DNA of 33,864 bases from a virus: positions 1-33,864 of IMG/VR virus record IMGVR_UViG_3300021356_000076, one strand, 5' to 3'. The translations under genes were made by a program, and so were the position numbers. The notes under the pieces were generated by a model. The model ran no database searches. It saw only the letters and a list, made by a program, of their open reading frames with translations, and was not told the origin of the DNA. This document shows, piece after piece, positions 1 to 30,870 of the stretch (positions within the stretch are counted from its first letter, which is position 1; the number at the start of each line of letters is the position of its first letter).

Positions 1-442
1 TAATTAACCATTCAGAAACCTTTGTTCCTTTTGGATAATAAATTTGAAATAAATCTGATCTTGCGTGTCGATGTCTTTCAAATCTAGACCTTAGTCCATC
101 TTCACCACCATCATATAAAGCTTTAAATGTTCCCCAATGTTCATTAGAAAAAGAATACGTAATAGTATATAGTATCTTTTCAAAATTAGAAACATCTTTT
201 CCCTTAAAAAAATCTACATAAGGATGTTCGTGCCAATGCAACCTATGAGAAAATATTTGAAAATCATCTTTTAGTAAATCATCTAATCTTAAATCAAACT
301 TATCACAGAACTCAAAAAACTTTTCTTTACGTTGATCTAAAGTATAATCTTTCATCCACGTATCAACTGGTTTTTTCTTTTTCATTTCAACTATCGTAGT
401 ATTTGGATATACGATGTTGTGTTCGTTTGGAAATAAGCTCAT
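1..442 (-). CDS. Unrecognised early protein, 3' end cut off by the window edge
   Basis: An open frame starts with ATG at 442 and stays open to the window edge, giving 147 codons without a stop. Its ATG overlaps the TGA of the upstream gene (ATGA), a sign of translational coupling. The protein begins MSLFPNEHNIVYPN and is rich in His and aromatic residues (a RLHWHEHPYVDFF stretch, later RFERHRHARSDLF). I recognise no family. A separate early-type promoter lies at 453-481 inside the end of the previous gene, so this gene can probably be expressed on its own. It follows a possible DNA-modification gene, which makes a related role conceivable but unproven. It is real by frame, overlap and promoter; its function is unknown. 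Confidence 0.75.
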   Translation of the reverse strand, partial: MSLFPNEHNIVYPNTTIVEMKKKKPVDTWMKDYTLDQRKEKFFEFCDKFDLRLDDLLKDDFQIFSHRLHWHEHPYVDFFKGKDVSNFEKILYTITYSFSNEHWGTFKALYDGGEDGLRSRFERHRHARSDLFQIYYPKGTKVSEWLI

Positions 443-1590
443 AAGTTGTAATATTGTACCATATCTTGATATTGTTGTACACTTAAATTATTGTCGTTAA
501 GTACTTTTAAATCAGATGGATGTGCAGTAATACCATTAAATGTTTCTACTAATCCAAGATCAAGCATTGCTTTTTGCCTTCCTCGAGGATGATCTTTAAT
601 ATCGCTACTTGACCATACTTTATCAAAATCTAAATGTGAATAATCATTCCCTGGACGAATGTAGTTTTCAACCCATCTAATATAATCGCAACATACATCT
701 TCAGCATTATATGGTACACTTCCTGTATCTTCATAAATGCTTCTCATTACTTCATCAAGAAAATCTTCTTTCTTCAGTTTTTTATCGTTTTCTGCGAGAT
801 ACGAAATACATTCTACTGCGTTTGTTCCATAATAAAACATACTTTCTTTGTTCACATAATGCGGAAACCAATCTGCGATATCAGCCACAACTGCAGCATA
901 TTGAAATTTGTATTGTCTTAATCCATTTTCTACATTCCAATTTAACATAAATTCTCCGATCTCTCTTAGATCTTTTTTACCTGGAGATGCTAAGAAAACT
1001 GCGAGAGCTTGTGCCAATCTTGGCGCATATTCACAAAGATAGTAATCACCACCTTTTTTGTATTCGCTTGTAGGTTTTGGAAATGCTGGAAATTGATATC
1101 CAATAGAAGTATAAAAAGGTTTTCCAATCTTGCTTTCAGCCTTAATAATCTTTTTCATATCTTCAATATTTTCGGCCAAATGAAGTTTAAATAAAAGTGT
1201 GTTATGATAGCCAGAAGGTTTTGTGCCGTAATTAATTGCTGAACCCGTTACTCTATGCAATATAAAAAGATACAACCATGTGTCTAAGGAATGAATTTTA
1301 CCCGTCCAGTTTTTCGCTACTAATTCTCTTTGTGCAGTAGCTTTACCAGCTTTCATTCGTTCCCAATATGGATGCTTATCTGTCCAACCATAAAATATAT
1401 CGTTTACGATTTGAGAGAAGCCTGCATATTTTCTTTCAACTACATCGTATAGTTCTACATTCTCCATCAAATCATCGTTCATACCACTTTCGGTATGAGG
1501 CATAAAATTTGGTACGTTACATTTTTCTTGTTGATCTTTTGCCAATTCAAAGTACTTCAAAAAATCATAGTAATATTTTGTTTTTATCAT
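439..1590 (-). CDS. Possible amino acid:DNA transferase-like (aGPT-PPlase/ADDT-like) protein
   Basis: 383 residues, start ATG at 1590 overlapping the TGA of the gene before it (ATGA). The most conserved-looking part is HRVTGSAINYG at residues 112-122, followed by GYHNT at 127-131; several Trp and Asp/Glu-rich helices follow and the protein looks mostly alpha-helical. This pattern reminds me of the phage alpha-glutamyl/putrescinyl-thymine pyrophosphorylase (amino acid:DNA transferase) superfamily, which attaches groups to a hydroxymethylated pyrimidine in DNA. That is recall of a pattern, not a search result. The operon also encodes a ThyA-family enzyme with hydroxymethylase-type residues, a dCMP deaminase and MazG-type pyrophosphatases, which suits such a role. 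Alternative: an unrelated conserved phage protein of unknown function. Confidence 0.4.
   Translation of the reverse strand: MIKTKYYYDFLKYFELAKDQQEKCNVPNFMPHTESGMNDDLMENVELYDVVERKYAGFSQIVNDIFYGWTDKHPYWERMKAGKATAQRELVAKNWTGKIHSLDTWLYLFILHRVTGSAINYGTKPSGYHNTLLFKLHLAENIEDMKKIIKAESKIGKPFYTSIGYQFPAFPKPTSEYKKGGDYYLCEYAPRLAQALAVFLASPGKKDLREIGEFMLNWNVENGLRQYKFQYAAVVADIADWFPHYVNKESMFYYGTNAVECISYLAENDKKLKKEDFLDEVMRSIYEDTGSVPYNAEDVCCDYIRWVENYIRPGNDYSHLDFDKVWSSSDIKDHPRGRQKAMLDLGLVETFNGITAHPSDLKVLNDNNLSVQQYQDMVQYYNL
453..481 (-). promoter_or_regulatory. Early-type promoter (TGTACA, 17 bp, TACAAT)
   Basis: On the minus strand, TGTACA (476-481) is followed after exactly 17 bp by TGG-TACAAT (453-458). This differs by one base in the -10 from the other early promoters here. 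It lies inside the last codons of the 439-1590 gene and would serve the partial gene starting at 442. Confidence 0.55.
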
Positions 1591-1880
1591 ACTGTTAACG
1601 AAGCTACTAAATTATTAATTAAAAACATTAGACCTACACCATTTAGTAGAATCAATGCTCTATCTTTCCATATCACAGAAACAATCAACCATAAGAAAAT
1701 ACCTACAATTGATAAATATAAATCATAAATTTCCATTCCATCAACTCCACGAATAGACATTGCAAATAAAACAAATGCTGATGCAATCCACTTACAATAC
1801 CAATCTAACGTGTATTTTGGAGTTGCTGATTTATAAATTCGTTTACTGTTTTCCAATTCTTCCTTTGTAAATTTACTCAT
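1587..1880 (-). CDS. Small integral membrane protein
   Basis: 97 residues. After a short polar N-terminus there are hydrophobic segments at about residues 30-43, 55-70 and 76-95, with a conserved-looking VIWKDRALILLN linker between the last two. This fits a small inner-membrane protein with two or three helices. Similar small proteins occur in marine T4-like phages, as I recall, but with no known function. Its start overlaps the preceding gene by 8 bases and its stop overlaps the next start, so it belongs to a tightly packed operon. It could affect the host membrane or permeability; nothing in the sequence proves that. Confidence 0.75.
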   Translation of the reverse strand: MSKFTKEELENSKRIYKSATPKYTLDWYCKWIASAFVLFAMSIRGVDGMEIYDLYLSIVGIFLWLIVSVIWKDRALILLNGVGLMFLINNLVASLTV

Positions 1881-2055
1881 CTTCTATTTTAATCCTTTTA
1901 CGATTATATTTAGTTTTATCTGAGTGCACTTTTGTTGCTCCATGTTTTGGAGTTTTTTTACGTGCAAAAATTCGATCCCAATTTTCCTCGAATTGTTCCT
2001 TATTTTTTATATCACGGTATTTGCTTCCTTTACCACCGTGCCATTTACCAGTCAT
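1873..2055 (-). CDS. Small basic conserved phage protein
   Basis: 60 residues, very Lys-rich, with N-terminal MTGKWHGGKGSKYR and then a NWDRIF segment. I have seen this N-terminal pattern (GKWHGGKG, then N-x-D-x-IF) in short hypothetical proteins of many tailed phages, but no function is known to me. The strong positive charge would allow nucleic-acid binding. The start overlaps the end of the gene before it (TGACTGG region), and the stop lies inside the start region of the membrane protein gene, supporting a real translated unit. Confidence 0.7.
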   Translation of the reverse strand: MTGKWHGGKGSKYRDIKNKEQFEENWDRIFARKKTPKHGATKVHSDKTKYNRKRIKIEDE

Positions 2056-2233
2056 GAGTTTCAGTGACCTCTTGTTTCACAAACATAATATTACCTTCCT
2101 TACCAACACGTAAGACAAAATGATCGCCTTCGTTGAGTGGAATTTTGTTAATATCAATCATTTCATCTGGCTCTGTATCTAACATCACCAAACCATTTTC
2201 ATTTATTGCAAACTTGTAATCTACGTACATCAT
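2045..2233 (-). CDS. Small hypothetical protein behind the tRNAs
   Basis: 62 residues, mixed alpha/beta in appearance, acidic in the middle (LDTEPDEMIDINKIP). I do not recognise it. I chose the first of two adjacent ATG codons (2233) because GAGGAA lies a normal distance upstream. It begins 18 bases downstream of the encoded CCA end of tRNA-Leu, so it probably comes from the same primary transcript after tRNA processing. It overlaps the next gene by 11 bases. Confidence 0.65.
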   Translation of the reverse strand: MMYVDYKFAINENGLVMLDTEPDEMIDINKIPLNEGDHFVLRVGKEGNIMFVKQEVTETHDW

Positions 2234-2250
2234 ATCATTTCCTCTTTTTT

Positions 2251-2336
2251 TGGTGCCCGCGGCCAGAATCGAACTGGCACGCTTTAAAAGCGAGAGATTT
2301 TAAGTCTCTTGTGTCTACCTATTCCACCACGCGGGC
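2251..2336 (-). tRNA. tRNA-Leu (anticodon UAA)
   Basis: 86 nt including an encoded CCA. The acceptor stem GCCCGCG pairs perfectly with CGCGGGC. The anticodon loop reads CTTAAAA, giving anticodon TAA, and there is the long variable arm expected for tRNA-Leu. It reads UUA, a codon favoured in AT-rich phage genes. Confidence 0.95.
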
Positions 2337-2342
2337 CATAAT

Positions 2343-2419
2343 TGGCGCGCCCTCCAGGATTCGAACCTGGGACCCACAGCTTAGAAGGCTGTTGCTCTAT
2401 CCAGCTGAGCTAAGGGCGC
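2343..2419 (-). tRNA. tRNA-Arg (anticodon UCU)
   Basis: 77 nt including an encoded CCA. The acceptor stem GCGCCCT pairs with AGGGCGC, the T-arm has GGTTCGAATCC, and the anticodon loop CTTCTAA gives TCT, reading AGA. It lies 6 bases from tRNA-Leu and 6 bases from the dCMP deaminase stop, so both tRNAs are embedded in the operon transcript. Confidence 0.95.
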
Positions 2420-2425
2420 AATAAA

Positions 2426-2875
2426 CTAAATAGTGTTTATAAAGTCGTACTGAACCCCTGCTTCATTGAATATTGCTTTAGTCAATTTAGTGGATTCTAT
2501 CCACTTATCAGGTGTTGCGTCTGTAATAGGTGTTGATACAACTCTTTTTACTCCTACTTGTATCAATCCTTTAGCACATTCACTACAAACAGGTAAACCA
2601 TAAATGTACATCGTACTGCCATTTAATGATACACCGTTATATGTAGCATTATATATGCAATTCATTTCTGCATGAACAACATATTTATATTTTTCTTCTC
2701 GATTATTTAATCGATGTTCTGAATCTTCAATACCACGTGGAAATCCATTATATCCTTGAGCGAGTAGTTGTCCTTTTTCTCCAACTGCTACTGCGCCAAT
2801 ACACGTACTTGGATCTTTTGACCAAGTAGAAATTTCACGTGCCAATCGTATGTATTTTTTGTCCCAATTATTCAC
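2426..2875 (-). CDS. cd: dCMP deaminase (deoxycytidylate deaminase)
   Basis: 149 residues of the zinc-dependent cytidine/deoxycytidylate deaminase family, converting dCMP to dUMP for thymidylate synthesis. The zinc and catalytic signature is complete: HAE at 68-70 and PVCSEC at 95-100 (two Cys ligands). The N-terminal CIGAVAV and GYNGFPRG segments are typical of phage dCMP deaminases. The start codon is GTG at 2875, inside the end of the preceding MazG gene, with GGAG about 11 bases upstream. It sits beside a ThyA-family enzyme acting on the same pyrimidine nucleotides. Confidence 0.93.
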   Translation of the reverse strand: MNNWDKKYIRLAREISTWSKDPSTCIGAVAVGEKGQLLAQGYNGFPRGIEDSEHRLNNREEKYKYVVHAEMNCIYNATYNGVSLNGSTMYIYGLPVCSECAKGLIQVGVKRVVSTPITDATPDKWIESTKLTKAIFNEAGVQYDFINTI

Positions 2876-3119
2876 TAAAAAGTAAACTCCATTTCATTAG
2901 TTTCTTTTTCTTTTCTTTCATTCGATCTTCAATTTGCTTATCAGTAACATAATTATTCATTTTTAAAATTTCAATCATGGTTAAAACATCACCGACTTCA
3001 TCTTGAAGATTACGTATATATTTAGTATCGCCCTTTGTACGTATTACTTTACTACAAGCTTGAATCAGCTCGCCGCATTCTTCCATTGTAATTACTAATG
3101 CTTCTTCTTTCTTTTTCAT
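2868..3119 (-). CDS. MazG-like nucleotide pyrophosphohydrolase
   Basis: 83 residues, a single all-helical MazG-type domain. The metal-binding pattern is visible: EECGEL at about residues 13-18, followed by DEVGDV at about 40-45. Members hydrolyse NTPs or dNTPs to monophosphates; in phages they are thought to shape nucleotide or alarmone pools. It is one of two MazG-like genes in the window. The start ATG overlaps the TGA of the ThyA-family gene (ATGA), and the end overlaps the dCMP deaminase GTG, so the three are tightly coupled. Confidence 0.85.
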   Translation of the reverse strand: MKKKEEALVITMEECGELIQACSKVIRTKGDTKYIRNLQDEVGDVLTMIEILKMNNYVTDKQIEDRMKEKKKKLMKWSLLFSE

Positions 3120-3796
3120 TTTACTAAATCAAAGTGCCTTTCGTATACGTGCAAGTTTTGTACTTGCCAATGAATATTACCTTCTTCTAAATGTATACCG
3201 TTAAAATACAGATCATCTCTTAGTAGATCAAATACGTGTTTTTGCCATGCATAATCATTACGATAACCGAATATTACATCGTTTGATCGCATTTGAACAA
3301 CAGCATGTAATGCTTCATCACGAATATAATATGTAACTGCATTTGTACAAATAAAGTCGTTTTTACCGTTTTCTTTGTATTCGTGCCAAATGCTTGGACG
3401 ATTATAAACCATACATGCTCTACGTGAATCTGGATTTTTCATCAATTCATTTAGTACTTTATCATACTGTTTAAAGTACTTTTTGGACCAAATAAGATGA
3501 CCATAATTTGAATTGATTTCACCATGATCATTTGCCGAATATAACCACGCTTGAGGTGGATCACGATCTTCGCCATAGATGTCATAAATGTTAGTAGATT
3601 TAGAATCATACCATTGTAATTCAGCTTCGATATAATCTTGATTCGGAGTACCAAAGATTGCTGGTTCATCAGCATAAAAATTAGCACCAATCATTTCGAT
3701 TGTTTTTGCACCAGTTTTATCAATGGTAAAATTTTGATTATGAAGTTCATTTACAAAATAACTTCTTACTTGATCAATTTCTAAAGCTGTATTCAT
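3116..3796 (-). CDS. ThyA-family enzyme with dCMP hydroxymethylase-type residues
   Basis: 226 residues of the thymidylate synthase/dCMP hydroxymethylase family. The nucleophile is C150 (DFICTNA), and the phosphate-binding RSND motif is at 170-173. Lined up with E. coli ThyA (C146, R166, N177), the base-recognising Asn falls on D181 (GYRND). T4 dCMP hydroxymethylase likewise has Cys148 and Asp179, and its Asp favours cytosine over uracil. The match of spacing is exact, so I infer action on dCMP, giving 5-hydroxymethyl- or methyl-dCMP, rather than ordinary TMP synthesis. It is shorter than E. coli ThyA (264 aa). The gene lies between a dATP/dGTP-diphosphohydrolase-like gene and MazG with ATGA overlaps. 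A dUMP-specific variant cannot be excluded. Confidence 0.85.
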   Translation of the reverse strand: MNTALEIDQVRSYFVNELHNQNFTIDKTGAKTIEMIGANFYADEPAIFGTPNQDYIEAELQWYDSKSTNIYDIYGEDRDPPQAWLYSANDHGEINSNYGHLIWSKKYFKQYDKVLNELMKNPDSRRACMVYNRPSIWHEYKENGKNDFICTNAVTYYIRDEALHAVVQMRSNDVIFGYRNDYAWQKHVFDLLRDDLYFNGIHLEEGNIHWQVQNLHVYERHFDLVK

Positions 3797-4098
3797 GGTT
3801 TGTACCTGTCATCGGATTCTGGATGTTCGCTTTCGTGAATCATAAGAATCATAATTTGTGTTGCTGCATGAGCGAGATGATTTAAACCAGATTCTGGATC
3901 AATATCTTCACCTGCATGCCATGCGTTTAAGTGTCTTTGAATAGATGAGTATGTACGAATCCAACTTGTCGTATTACCATCGTCACGCCAATTGTTGATA
4001 CCATATTTTGCTGCACCGAAACCAAAAACTTTTGATATTTCAATAAGTGTTTCTGGTGGAATCAAACCTAGAGGTGGTTTATCGTCATCATATTTCAT
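3793..4098 (-). CDS. dATP/dGTP diphosphohydrolase N-terminal domain-like (DUF5664) protein
   Basis: 101 residues, all-helical. It has the pattern I know from the DUF5664/dATP-dGTP diphosphohydrolase N-terminal family: KYDDDKPPL at the start, FGAAKYG..NWR around residues 27-38, RHLNAWHAGEDID at about 56-68 and LNHLAHAATQIMIL at about 72-85. The family is related to MazG, and some members (MazZ of Z-genome cyanophage) remove pyrophosphate from dGTP. It is the first gene after the early promoter at 4131-4159 and heads the nucleotide operon. A start with weak AAGG about 11 bases upstream is used. Confidence 0.8.
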   Translation of the reverse strand: MKYDDDKPPLGLIPPETLIEISKVFGFGAAKYGINNWRDDGNTTSWIRTYSSIQRHLNAWHAGEDIDPESGLNHLAHAATQIMILMIHESEHPESDDRYKP

Positions 4099-4130
4099 AT
4101 ATTAAATACCTTTTTCAATTTTATAGTAGT

Positions 4131-4159
4131 ATTATACCACAGTTGGGGGGATTTGTACA
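4131..4159 (-). promoter_or_regulatory. Early promoter of the nucleotide-metabolism operon
   Basis: TGTACA (4154-4159), 17 bp, then TGG-TATAAT (4131-4136) on the minus strand. A 7-base A-tract lies 3 bp upstream of the -35 (4163-4169), like a proximal UP element. It drives genes from 4098 downwards. Confidence 0.8.
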
Positions 4160-24562: not shown

Positions 24563-25024
24563 CTATTTAAATTCAAAATATGTATATTTAAATGTAACGT
24601 CTGCTTGTAGGTATTCCACTTCAGTTTGTTGCGTAGAAAATTCAACTGCTGATAAATTTGTAGGAAATAAATCTCTAAAAAGTATTTCTTTTGTTACGTT
24701 GTTGTGACTTGATAAAATTAGTAATGTACCATCAGATTTAAATGATTCTCCTTCATTAATACAGTTATGCAACCAATCGAATGTTTCAATATAGTTTTCC
24801 ATATTCTCTGTAATATTAAATCTAATACTTAAATTACCAAAATTAAGTCTGTCACCAGTAAAAGCCATATTTGTACCTTTATAAGGTGCAGGAACTTCTG
24901 ATAGTGACACGTCTGGAACTGTAACTGCTGTACAGAAATAGTTTATGTTTTGATATTTTTCTGCCTCAAGTTTGAACTGAAATCCAACAGGTGACAAAAA
25001 GTTTTTATTAGTTGTGATAGCCAT
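24563..25024 (-). CDS. Tail tube gp19-like paralogue
   Basis: 153 residues, related to the gp19 gene at 30343: both share the start MAI, a common length and a late strand (FPTNLSAVEFS here, FPTNLSTIELS there). So it is a second tail-tube-fold protein; T4 gp48 and gp54 are tube-like baseplate proteins, and a tube initiator or a variant tube is possible. There is no ribosome-binding site before the ATG; a late-promoter octamer ends just 5 bases before it. It lies between the capsid terminator and the uvsY promoter, alone, where T4 has gene 24. Confidence 0.8.
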   Translation of the reverse strand: MAITTNKNFLSPVGFQFKLEAEKYQNINYFCTAVTVPDVSLSEVPAPYKGTNMAFTGDRLNFGNLSIRFNITENMENYIETFDWLHNCINEGESFKSDGTLLILSSHNNVTKEILFRDLFPTNLSAVEFSTQQTEVEYLQADVTFKYTYFEFK

Positions 25025-30342: not shown

Positions 30343-30870
30343 TTAAGAAGTGGTATTTGATTCCCAATATTGTACTTGCATTTCAACTGTGAATTCTTCA
30401 ATCTGATTTTCGTTATCATATGAAAGTTCAATAGTTGATAAGTTAGTTGGGAAAACGCCTCTAAGATCATAAGTCTTAGTAACTTCACCTTGCTTATTAA
30501 GCTGCTCAACAAGCATATCAGCCATGTAATCAGTAGGATTACTTATACCGCTATTATTGTTGTGCTCGTTAATACCATTCATCCATCTTTCAAAAGCGTT
30601 TCTTACTTCGAATCCAGTATCATTAATAACTGTTAATGAAACTGGTTCAAATGTTCTGTCTCCAGCAATTTGTAACTGTCTACCTCTGAATAATACAGGG
30701 ATAGGAGCTACAACTGATGAAGGAAACTGAGCACCTTTGATCATGAATGAAGATAGTTCAACGTCACCTTGAGCATATGAAGGGAAATTACATGTTACTT
30801 TGAACATGTTGGAACGTGCGCCACCTCCTACGAGTTTTGATTTAAAATCATCTACGCCTAAAATTGCCAT
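30343..30870 (-). CDS. 19: Tail tube protein gp19
   Basis: 175 residues (T4 gp19 163), forming the inner tube under the sheath. The start SKLVGGGARSNMFKVTCNFP, the middle PIPVLFRGRQLQIAGDRTFEP and RNAFERWMNGINEH are family marks. It follows the sheath gene by 12 bases with AGGAGATT upstream, the standard sheath-tube pair. A paralogue lies at 24563. Confidence 0.96.
   Translation of the reverse strand: MAILGVDDFKSKLVGGGARSNMFKVTCNFPSYAQGDVELSSFMIKGAQFPSSVVAPIPVLFRGRQLQIAGDRTFEPVSLTVINDTGFEVRNAFERWMNGINEHNNNSGISNPTDYMADMLVEQLNKQGEVTKTYDLRGVFPTNLSTIELSYDNENQIEEFTVEMQVQYWESNTTS

Follow-up and report, generated by a model that had tools for sequence, protein, structure and literature searches.

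Hypermodification of DNA by ADDT- and PLP-type enzymes (amino acid:DNA transferases and pyridoxal phosphate enzymes, respectively) is established for hydroxymethyluracil (hmU). In the M6 thymidine pathway of Lee et al., the activated hydroxymethyl is reportedly replaced by an amino acid, which is then reshaped by a PLP enzyme. The cluster of Pseudomonas phage M6 encodes an ADDT (gp51), a PLP enzyme (gp52), a radical SAM protein (gp53), a P-loop 5-hydroxymethyldeoxyuridine (5-hmdU) DNA kinase (gp54), an HMUDK_hel protein (gp55), and a hydroxymethylase (gp58). Environmental contigs with the domains PF00303, PF00383, and PF01503 were enriched experimentally for modified cytosine, and a 5-hydroxymethylcytosine (hmC) carbamoyltransferase was proven (MetaGPA, PMC8670742). 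Synechococcus phage S-B43 carries 5-carboxymethylcytosine-glycine, made via CmoA/CmoX/CmoY (PMC12783734). Aeromonas phage 44RR is without a known glucosyltransferase, and by what means such phages protect their hmC was left open (Petrov et al. 2010, PMC2993671). The subject here is an operon at one end of IMG/VR record IMGVR_UViG_3300021356_000076, a linear virus record of 33,864 bases, probably a fragment, that is called the window below. The operon is predicted to make hmC, which a cassette of genes (c0, c3, c2, and c1) would probably then decorate in the phage DNA, likely with an amino-acid-derived group. What is new is that the same enzyme classes as in hmU hypermodification are linked to a cytosine hydroxymethylase, and this in aquatic T4-like phages.

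How does the locus compare with the described systems? Like the M6 cluster, it combines a hydroxymethylase with helical-superfamily enzymes and a homologous PLP fold-II enzyme; unlike in M6, the hydroxymethylase is a cytosine enzyme, a P-loop kinase and a radical SAM protein were not found, c0 and c3 fall below detection by hidden Markov models, and c1 is extra. With T4 it shares an orthologous hydroxymethylase (gp42) and the same slot between gene 42 and uvsX-41, but no glucosyltransferase is recognized in the slot here, and homologues of gp1 and gp56 were not found in the T4-like relatives searched. The 5-carbamoyloxymethyl-cytosine system (PMC8670742) likewise has a dCMP hydroxymethylase and an hmC modifier, with dCMP deaminase and PF01503 nearby, and the window holds all three domains (thymidylate-synthase-fold, dCMP deaminase, and PF01503); the modifier there, however, is a carbamoyltransferase, and none is recognized here. 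The 5-carboxymethylcytosine-glycine system also places an amino-acid-derived group on phage-DNA cytosine, but by a carboxymethyltransferase and an amide ligase rather than through hmC and ADDT/PLP-type enzymes. Aeromonas phages 44RR/31 and 25 resemble the window in carrying gene 42 and c1 and no known glucosyltransferases (PMC2993671), and differ in that no close homologue of c0, c3, or c2 was found in isolated Aeromonas phages. The cassette is not described in the literature searched, coverage of which was incomplete. The hydroxymethylase and the cassette genes that lie in the window are as follows.

3116..3796, minus strand: dCMP hydroxymethylase, T4 gp42 orthologue, predicted maker of 5-hydroxymethyl-dCMP (hmdCMP) (PF00303 8e-15; 1b49 E 2.1e-72)
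439..1590, minus strand: c0, 383 amino acids, placed by its model in the ADDT/HMUDK_hel/alpha-GPT-PPlase fold superfamily; proposed hmC activating/transferring enzyme (AlphaFold and Foldseek against BFVD)
2..442, minus strand: c3, first 147 amino acids of a protein of ~320, cut by the contig end; same superfamily as c0 by model (AlphaFold and Foldseek against BFVD, full-length orthologue)

An earlier note on this DNA, made from the letters alone, called the 3116-3796 product a ThyA-family enzyme. It does belong to the thymidylate-synthase superfamily, but the label can be sharpened: its match to T4 gp42 (1b49) has an E value of 2.1e-72, versus 2.6e-7 for the best thymidylate synthase. It keeps the catalytic Cys148 (FICTN) and the cytosine-specifying Asp179 (RNDYAW), a position held by Asn in thymidylate synthase; PDB entries of the T4 enzyme carrying Asn at site 179 align as RNNYAW. 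The Asp is kept in every hydroxymethylase relative covering the site. By its sequence, the product is a dCMP hydroxymethylase, and the gp42 match together with the retained Cys148 and Asp179 makes hmdCMP the predicted nucleotide and hmC, not hmU, the starting base. The note's proposal of a hydroxymethylated pyrimidine made as a nucleotide is thus supported, with cytosine as the pyrimidine; the dUMP hydroxymethylase of thymidine hypermodification is not what was found, the 3116-3796 enzyme having the cytosine-type Asp. ThyX is a separate gene, further along in relatives, so the ThyA-fold gene is unnecessary for dTMP. TET/JBP enzymes were also sought in the larger relatives, and there were none in the T4-like ones.

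The note had also pointed to a pattern in the 439-1590 protein, HRVTGSAINYG...GYHNT, recalling amino acid:DNA transferases. The pattern is present, and the likeness holds at the level of fold, though not as Pfam ADDT membership by sequence. The AlphaFold model of c0 has a pTM of 0.78 and a mean pLDDT of 77, with weaker stretches near residues 47-51, 122-129, 162-165, and 312-331. A Foldseek search of BFVD with this model returns A0A6J5L8T5, named "Amino acid:DNA transferase domain-containing" (62% identity); A0A6J5LCY1, also named as an amino acid:DNA transferase domain protein (14% identity, E 2e-4); the 5-hmdU DNA kinase of phage SP10 (E 0.014, probability 1.00); HMUDK_hel of phiRSL1 (0.99); an alpha-GPT-PPlase clade 1 protein (0.84); and then endonuclease III (0.41). 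The structural half of what the note would have counted against itself, no match to any DNA-modifying family, therefore did not occur. On the strength of the model, c0 is a fold-level relative of the ADDT superfamily and not a member by the curated sequence test.

The complete c3 gene, of 319 amino acids, is found in the near-identical contig L002 (L002:1840-2799); L002 and a further contig, L003, are 92.5% and ~90% identical to the window over the overlap and hold the rest of c3. The note had recorded the 1-442 product as a His/aromatic-rich protein to be checked, and the AlphaFold model of the full-length orthologue (pTM 0.87, mean pLDDT 88) matches the same superfamily as c0. Its top ten in BFVD are its own orthologue A0A6J5LCY1 and nine other matches, followed by a clear drop. 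Among the nine are an alpha-GPT-PPlase clade 1 protein (probability 1.00), HMUDK_hel of phiRSL1 (TM 0.56/0.52), Lucky3, and phiW-14, and two unnamed proteins; also among them are the c0 orthologue and two uncharacterized proteins that c0 matches as well. The c0 model finds the c3 orthologue and the c3 model the c0 orthologue, each with probability 1.00. These shared matches suggest that c0 and c3 are paralogue-like proteins of one superfamily.

Both genes are real, and purifying selection on them is strong (dN/dS 0.03-0.11). Direct sequence searches of Pfam, PHROG, and PDB gave no family match for either. Relatives of c0 number 71 in IMG/VR and 4 in contigs of metagenome-assembled genomes, and neither c0 nor c3 has a tblastn match in 50,697 isolated-phage records, so only uncultured viruses are known here to carry these families.

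What lies beyond position 1? The note had proposed reading on for a P-loop base kinase or further transferases. Relatives show the order hydroxymethylase, dCMP deaminase, small genes, c0, (c3), c2, c1, (S21), UvsX, a small gene, and gp41 helicase; this yields the PLP enzyme c2 and a second modification-linked family, c1, but no kinase in the large records searched for it. The cassette has at least four genes (c0, c3, c2, and c1), with c3 an optional member. Linkage is conserved: in 43 of 44 T4-like loci, c2 and c1 follow c0 at no more than 4.5 kb downstream, and in 29 of 30 the hydroxymethylase precedes c0 at no more than 4.5 kb upstream. The c2 product matches PALP (PF00291) at E 4.8e-7 and 29.8 bits, under the curated cut-off of 35, and phrog_7093 at 1.7e-35. 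It is homologous to M6 gp52 (hhalign 96.6%, E 6e-10), with which it has a C terminus in common (PFP..YD.KAW..FWN.G), and its K44, invariant in 21 relatives, stands at the position of the lysine in gp52 SKIRG; in M6, gp52 adjoins the Pfam-positive ADDT gp51. The closest c2 relatives in isolated phages are those of Erythrobacter phage R6L (L169, gp1) and Microcystis phage Mae-JY30 (L170:6384-8702); they are fused to or adjoin domains resembling ParB and DNA methyltransferases, and their only annotation is "DNA modification methylase."

The c1 product is phrog_13881, which has no assigned function, and bears invariant motifs including GDSH and ID.RHH. A profile search of PDB with c1 gave no match. 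Two leads were left as such: an SGNH hydrolase, from GDSH and xVHLS motifs spotted by eye, and a relative of beta-glucosyltransferase, to which a similarity over ~70 residues falls short of significance. In a second phage lineage (L043, L045, L059, L064, L065, and L071), c1-c0-(c3)-c2 occur together with different flanking genes, along with a DprA-like/LOG-like gene and, downstream, a gp56-like dCTPase/dUTPase; the parts of this lineage searched contain no hydroxymethylase or TET/JBP.

The position of the cassette is itself informative. T4 has the order 42, beta-gt, segA, uvsX, 40, 41; here it is 42, cassette, uvsX, small gene, 41, so the cassette takes the place of the T4 beta-glucosyltransferase. 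A survey with the hydroxymethylase as query covered 80 loci, of which 45 had both ends of the slot present, with Pfam assignments of slot genes made on representatives. All 45 complete slots contain a recognizable modification-type cassette; none is empty. The contents fall into these types.

14 of 45, type B: myo-inositol-1-phosphate synthase (PF01658), k21, k23, and c1
11 of 45: TAGT glycosyltransferase (PF20691), epimerase, and UDP-glucose dehydrogenase
8 of 45: glycosyltransferase-type genes, including the DNA alpha-glucosyltransferase AGT (PF11440)
5 of 45, a galactofuranose set: epimerase, k41, and UDP-galactopyranose mutase
5 of 45, type A: the cassette of the window
2 of 45: TAGT without sugar genes

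The slot is thus one that known hmC decorators also occupy, and its position and swap-in alternatives independently support decoration of hmC. Relatives of DUF6552, a small gene of the operon (see below), are present in 37 of the 45 complete slots, whichever decorating cassette follows. A C5-cytosine-methylase-like gene occurs in all 40 loci of the other types and in none of the 5 type A loci. Other slot types (L209, L240, L212, and others) also include cytidylyltransferase genes. With a swappable slot predicted by gene order, a single locus could tell which modification chemistry is used, and this for many uncultured phages.

The type B cassette (L221:9050-13000 and 13 further loci) points to a modification of hmC derived from inositol; none is described in the literature searched. 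It also includes a small protein that looks HAD-like by eye. Its k23 is a Pfam-positive HMUDK_hel protein (5.3e-12, 46 bits against a cut-off of 25). In Aeromonas phage 44RR, whose gene 42 is 49% identical, ORF233c (L171:6992-9379) has an N-terminal part that is c1 (E 6e-65) and a C-terminal part that is a k23 homologue (E 3e-37). Type B and the 44RR fusion hence link c1 to an HMUDK_hel-type protein, as type A links it to the structurally similar c0. The 44RR fusion adjoins a sodium/sugar symporter; this was considered as a myo-inositol carrier, but its nearest solved relatives are sodium/glucose cotransporters, so it is not specific evidence. In Aeromonas phage 25 (L204:2764-6035), c1 is adjacent to a k41 relative, with UDP-galactopyranose mutase nearby. 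The c1 loci of 44RR and phage 25 may serve to decorate hmC in phages for which no glucosyltransferase is known. The locus thus offers candidates for a possible means of hmC protection in Aeromonas phages 44RR, 31, and 25, which have gene 42 and no glucosyltransferase (PMC2993671).

How might the parts work together? The operon would reprogram the nucleotide pool to yield hmdCMP, ending as hmC in phage DNA, and the cassette would then decorate the hydroxymethyl group after replication, with c0 and c3 followed by c2 (the PLP fold-II enzyme) and c1 (the new family). Together with c1, c0 may activate or substitute the hydroxymethyl of hmC in DNA, c0 acting as a helical 5-hmdU DNA kinase subunit or as an ADDT; c1 would be the first candidate for the activating step because it pairs with HMUDK_hel-type proteins. 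An amino acid supplied or reshaped by c2 would be the substituent, and c3, as an optional second enzyme of the superfamily, may add or exchange a further group. Like glucosyl-hmC in T4, the product would shield the DNA against host nucleases. hmC in DNA appears the most economical substrate for the cassette. The cassette probably attaches a further group to hmC, and that group is likely to be amino-acid-derived. Further decoration in DNA, which the note had offered as an inference, thus gains support from the c0 and c3 folds, the M6 gp52-like PLP enzyme, the slot position, and the swap-in alternatives. A bolder extension, possible but held tentatively, is that c0 (or k23) and c1 form a new two-part machine that both activates and replaces the hydroxymethyl of hmC in DNA without a P-loop kinase, giving cytosines with amino-acid-derived (type A) or inositol-derived (type B) groups, with the slot reloaded by phages for different chemistries. 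New cytosine modifications could be useful as restriction- and deaminase-resistant DNA chemistries.

Several results weigh against this proposal of an amino-acid-decorated hmC. ADDT (PF18724) has no match in 30 c0 members, the window, and six related records, nor does HMUDK_hel (PF18723) in the window and the six records; both models were positive on the controls M6, Vi01, and phiW-14. The P-loop base kinase (PF18748; control M6 positive) is without a match in the window and in five large viral records, which are possibly fragments. Profile-profile comparison of c0 or c3 with ADDT/HMUDK was not significant, which is why the structure route was taken, and Foldseek against PDB gave no convincing solved structure for c0, only weak matches to 8-oxoguanine glycosylase. 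The large relatives searched yielded no T4 gene 1 kinase and the T4-like ones no gp56 dCTPase, and c3 is detected in only 27 of 44 loci.

Could the group be a sugar, polyol, or phosphate instead? Here c1 would be a transferase with a distant likeness to T4 beta-glucosyltransferase, c0 and c3 its DNA-binding partners, and c2 the maker or editor of the donor. Sugar systems make up most of the alternative slot contents, c1 accompanies myo-inositol-1-phosphate synthase in type B and lies near UDP-galactopyranose mutase in Aeromonas phage 25, and the c1 profile ranks T4 beta-glucosyltransferase first, if weakly (E 0.064), among 901 background proteins. That similarity, however, is the short, nonsignificant one noted above, type A has no sugar-nucleotide gene, and c2 resembles the PLP enzyme of the amino-acid-based M6 pathway, so that this alternative is judged unlikely. 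Far less probable is that the nucleotide genes only balance deoxynucleotide pools, with a second "thymidylate synthase" as auxiliary metabolism and the downstream genes unrelated: the failure to find gp1 and gp56 in the T4-like relatives searched would fit, but the enzyme carries the Asp that specifies cytosine and matches gp42 far better than any thymidylate synthase, relatives encode ThyX separately, and sister phages carry known types of hmC decorator in the downstream slot. Least credible of all is that c0, c3, c2, and c1 modify a non-DNA target (tRNA or protein) or make a small molecule, an idea to which the two tRNA genes within the operon and the commonly metabolic nature of PLP fold-II enzymes lend something, but one at odds with named viral members of the c0/c3 superfamily being DNA-base modifiers and with the exchange of the cassette with DNA glycosyltransferases in the same slot.

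The operon runs from 4098 down to 1 on the minus strand, its genes abutting or mostly overlapping, which makes cotranscription likely. All of the genes that the note listed are where it placed them, the diphosphohydrolase, MazG, and dCMP deaminase being confirmed by Pfam and PHROG matches and the two tRNAs and three small open reading frames being present. The remaining features are as follows.

4131..4139, minus strand: extended -10 promoter motif TGGTATAAT of the operon, ~32 bp before the first start codon
3793..4098, minus strand: dATP/dGTP diphosphohydrolase N-domain protein, nucleotide pool (PF18909 1e-29; phrog_801 5.8e-38)
2868..3119, minus strand: short MazG-type nucleoside triphosphate pyrophosphohydrolase (PF03819 8e-5, 23.2 bits against a cut-off of 22; phrog_4856 5e-19)
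2426..2875, minus strand: dCMP deaminase, GTG start (PF00383 1e-18; phrog_174 8.5e-39)
2343..2419, minus strand: tRNA-Arg (tct)
2251..2336, minus strand: tRNA-Leu (taa)
2045..2233, minus strand: small protein, no assigned function (cluster c25, in 13 loci)
1873..2055, minus strand: small basic protein, no assigned function
1587..1880, minus strand: DUF6552 small hydrophobic protein (PF20189 2.9e-18)

Is the operon driven by one promoter, as the note had it? A TGTACA hexamer lies 17 bp upstream of TGGTATAAT at 4131-4139. The window contains 10 matches to TGNTATAAT versus 4.0 expected, a count reached by 1 of 100 shuffles, and most of the minus-strand copies are directly upstream of a start codon. 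The motif TGGTATAAT recurs on the minus strand at 4131, 7467, 10038, 15675, 17914, 21440, 22036, and 24534, mostly just before start codons. A simple promoter scan of the window did no better than shuffles (28 versus 29.7), so the promoter call depends on how often and where the motif recurs. The recurrent TGGTATAAT motif is probably a phage promoter class, and a single promoter for the operon is plausible, given TGGTATAAT before the first gene and its recurrence before other units.

The window, with a GC content of 34%, belongs to a T4-like myovirus by PHROG scans, which identify a gp43-type DNA polymerase, clamp, clamp loader, RegA, and SbcCD-like nuclease subunits, as well as a UvsW-like helicase, UvsY, late sigma factor, gp23-type capsid, portal, sheath, and terminase. 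The capsid protein shares ~60% identity with its counterparts in Pelagibacter phage HTVC008M and in Methylophilales and Synechococcus myophages. Two genes, at 24563-25024 and 30343-30870, both match the tail-tube family phrog_45; one adjoins UvsY, and the other lies beside the sheath gene as usual.

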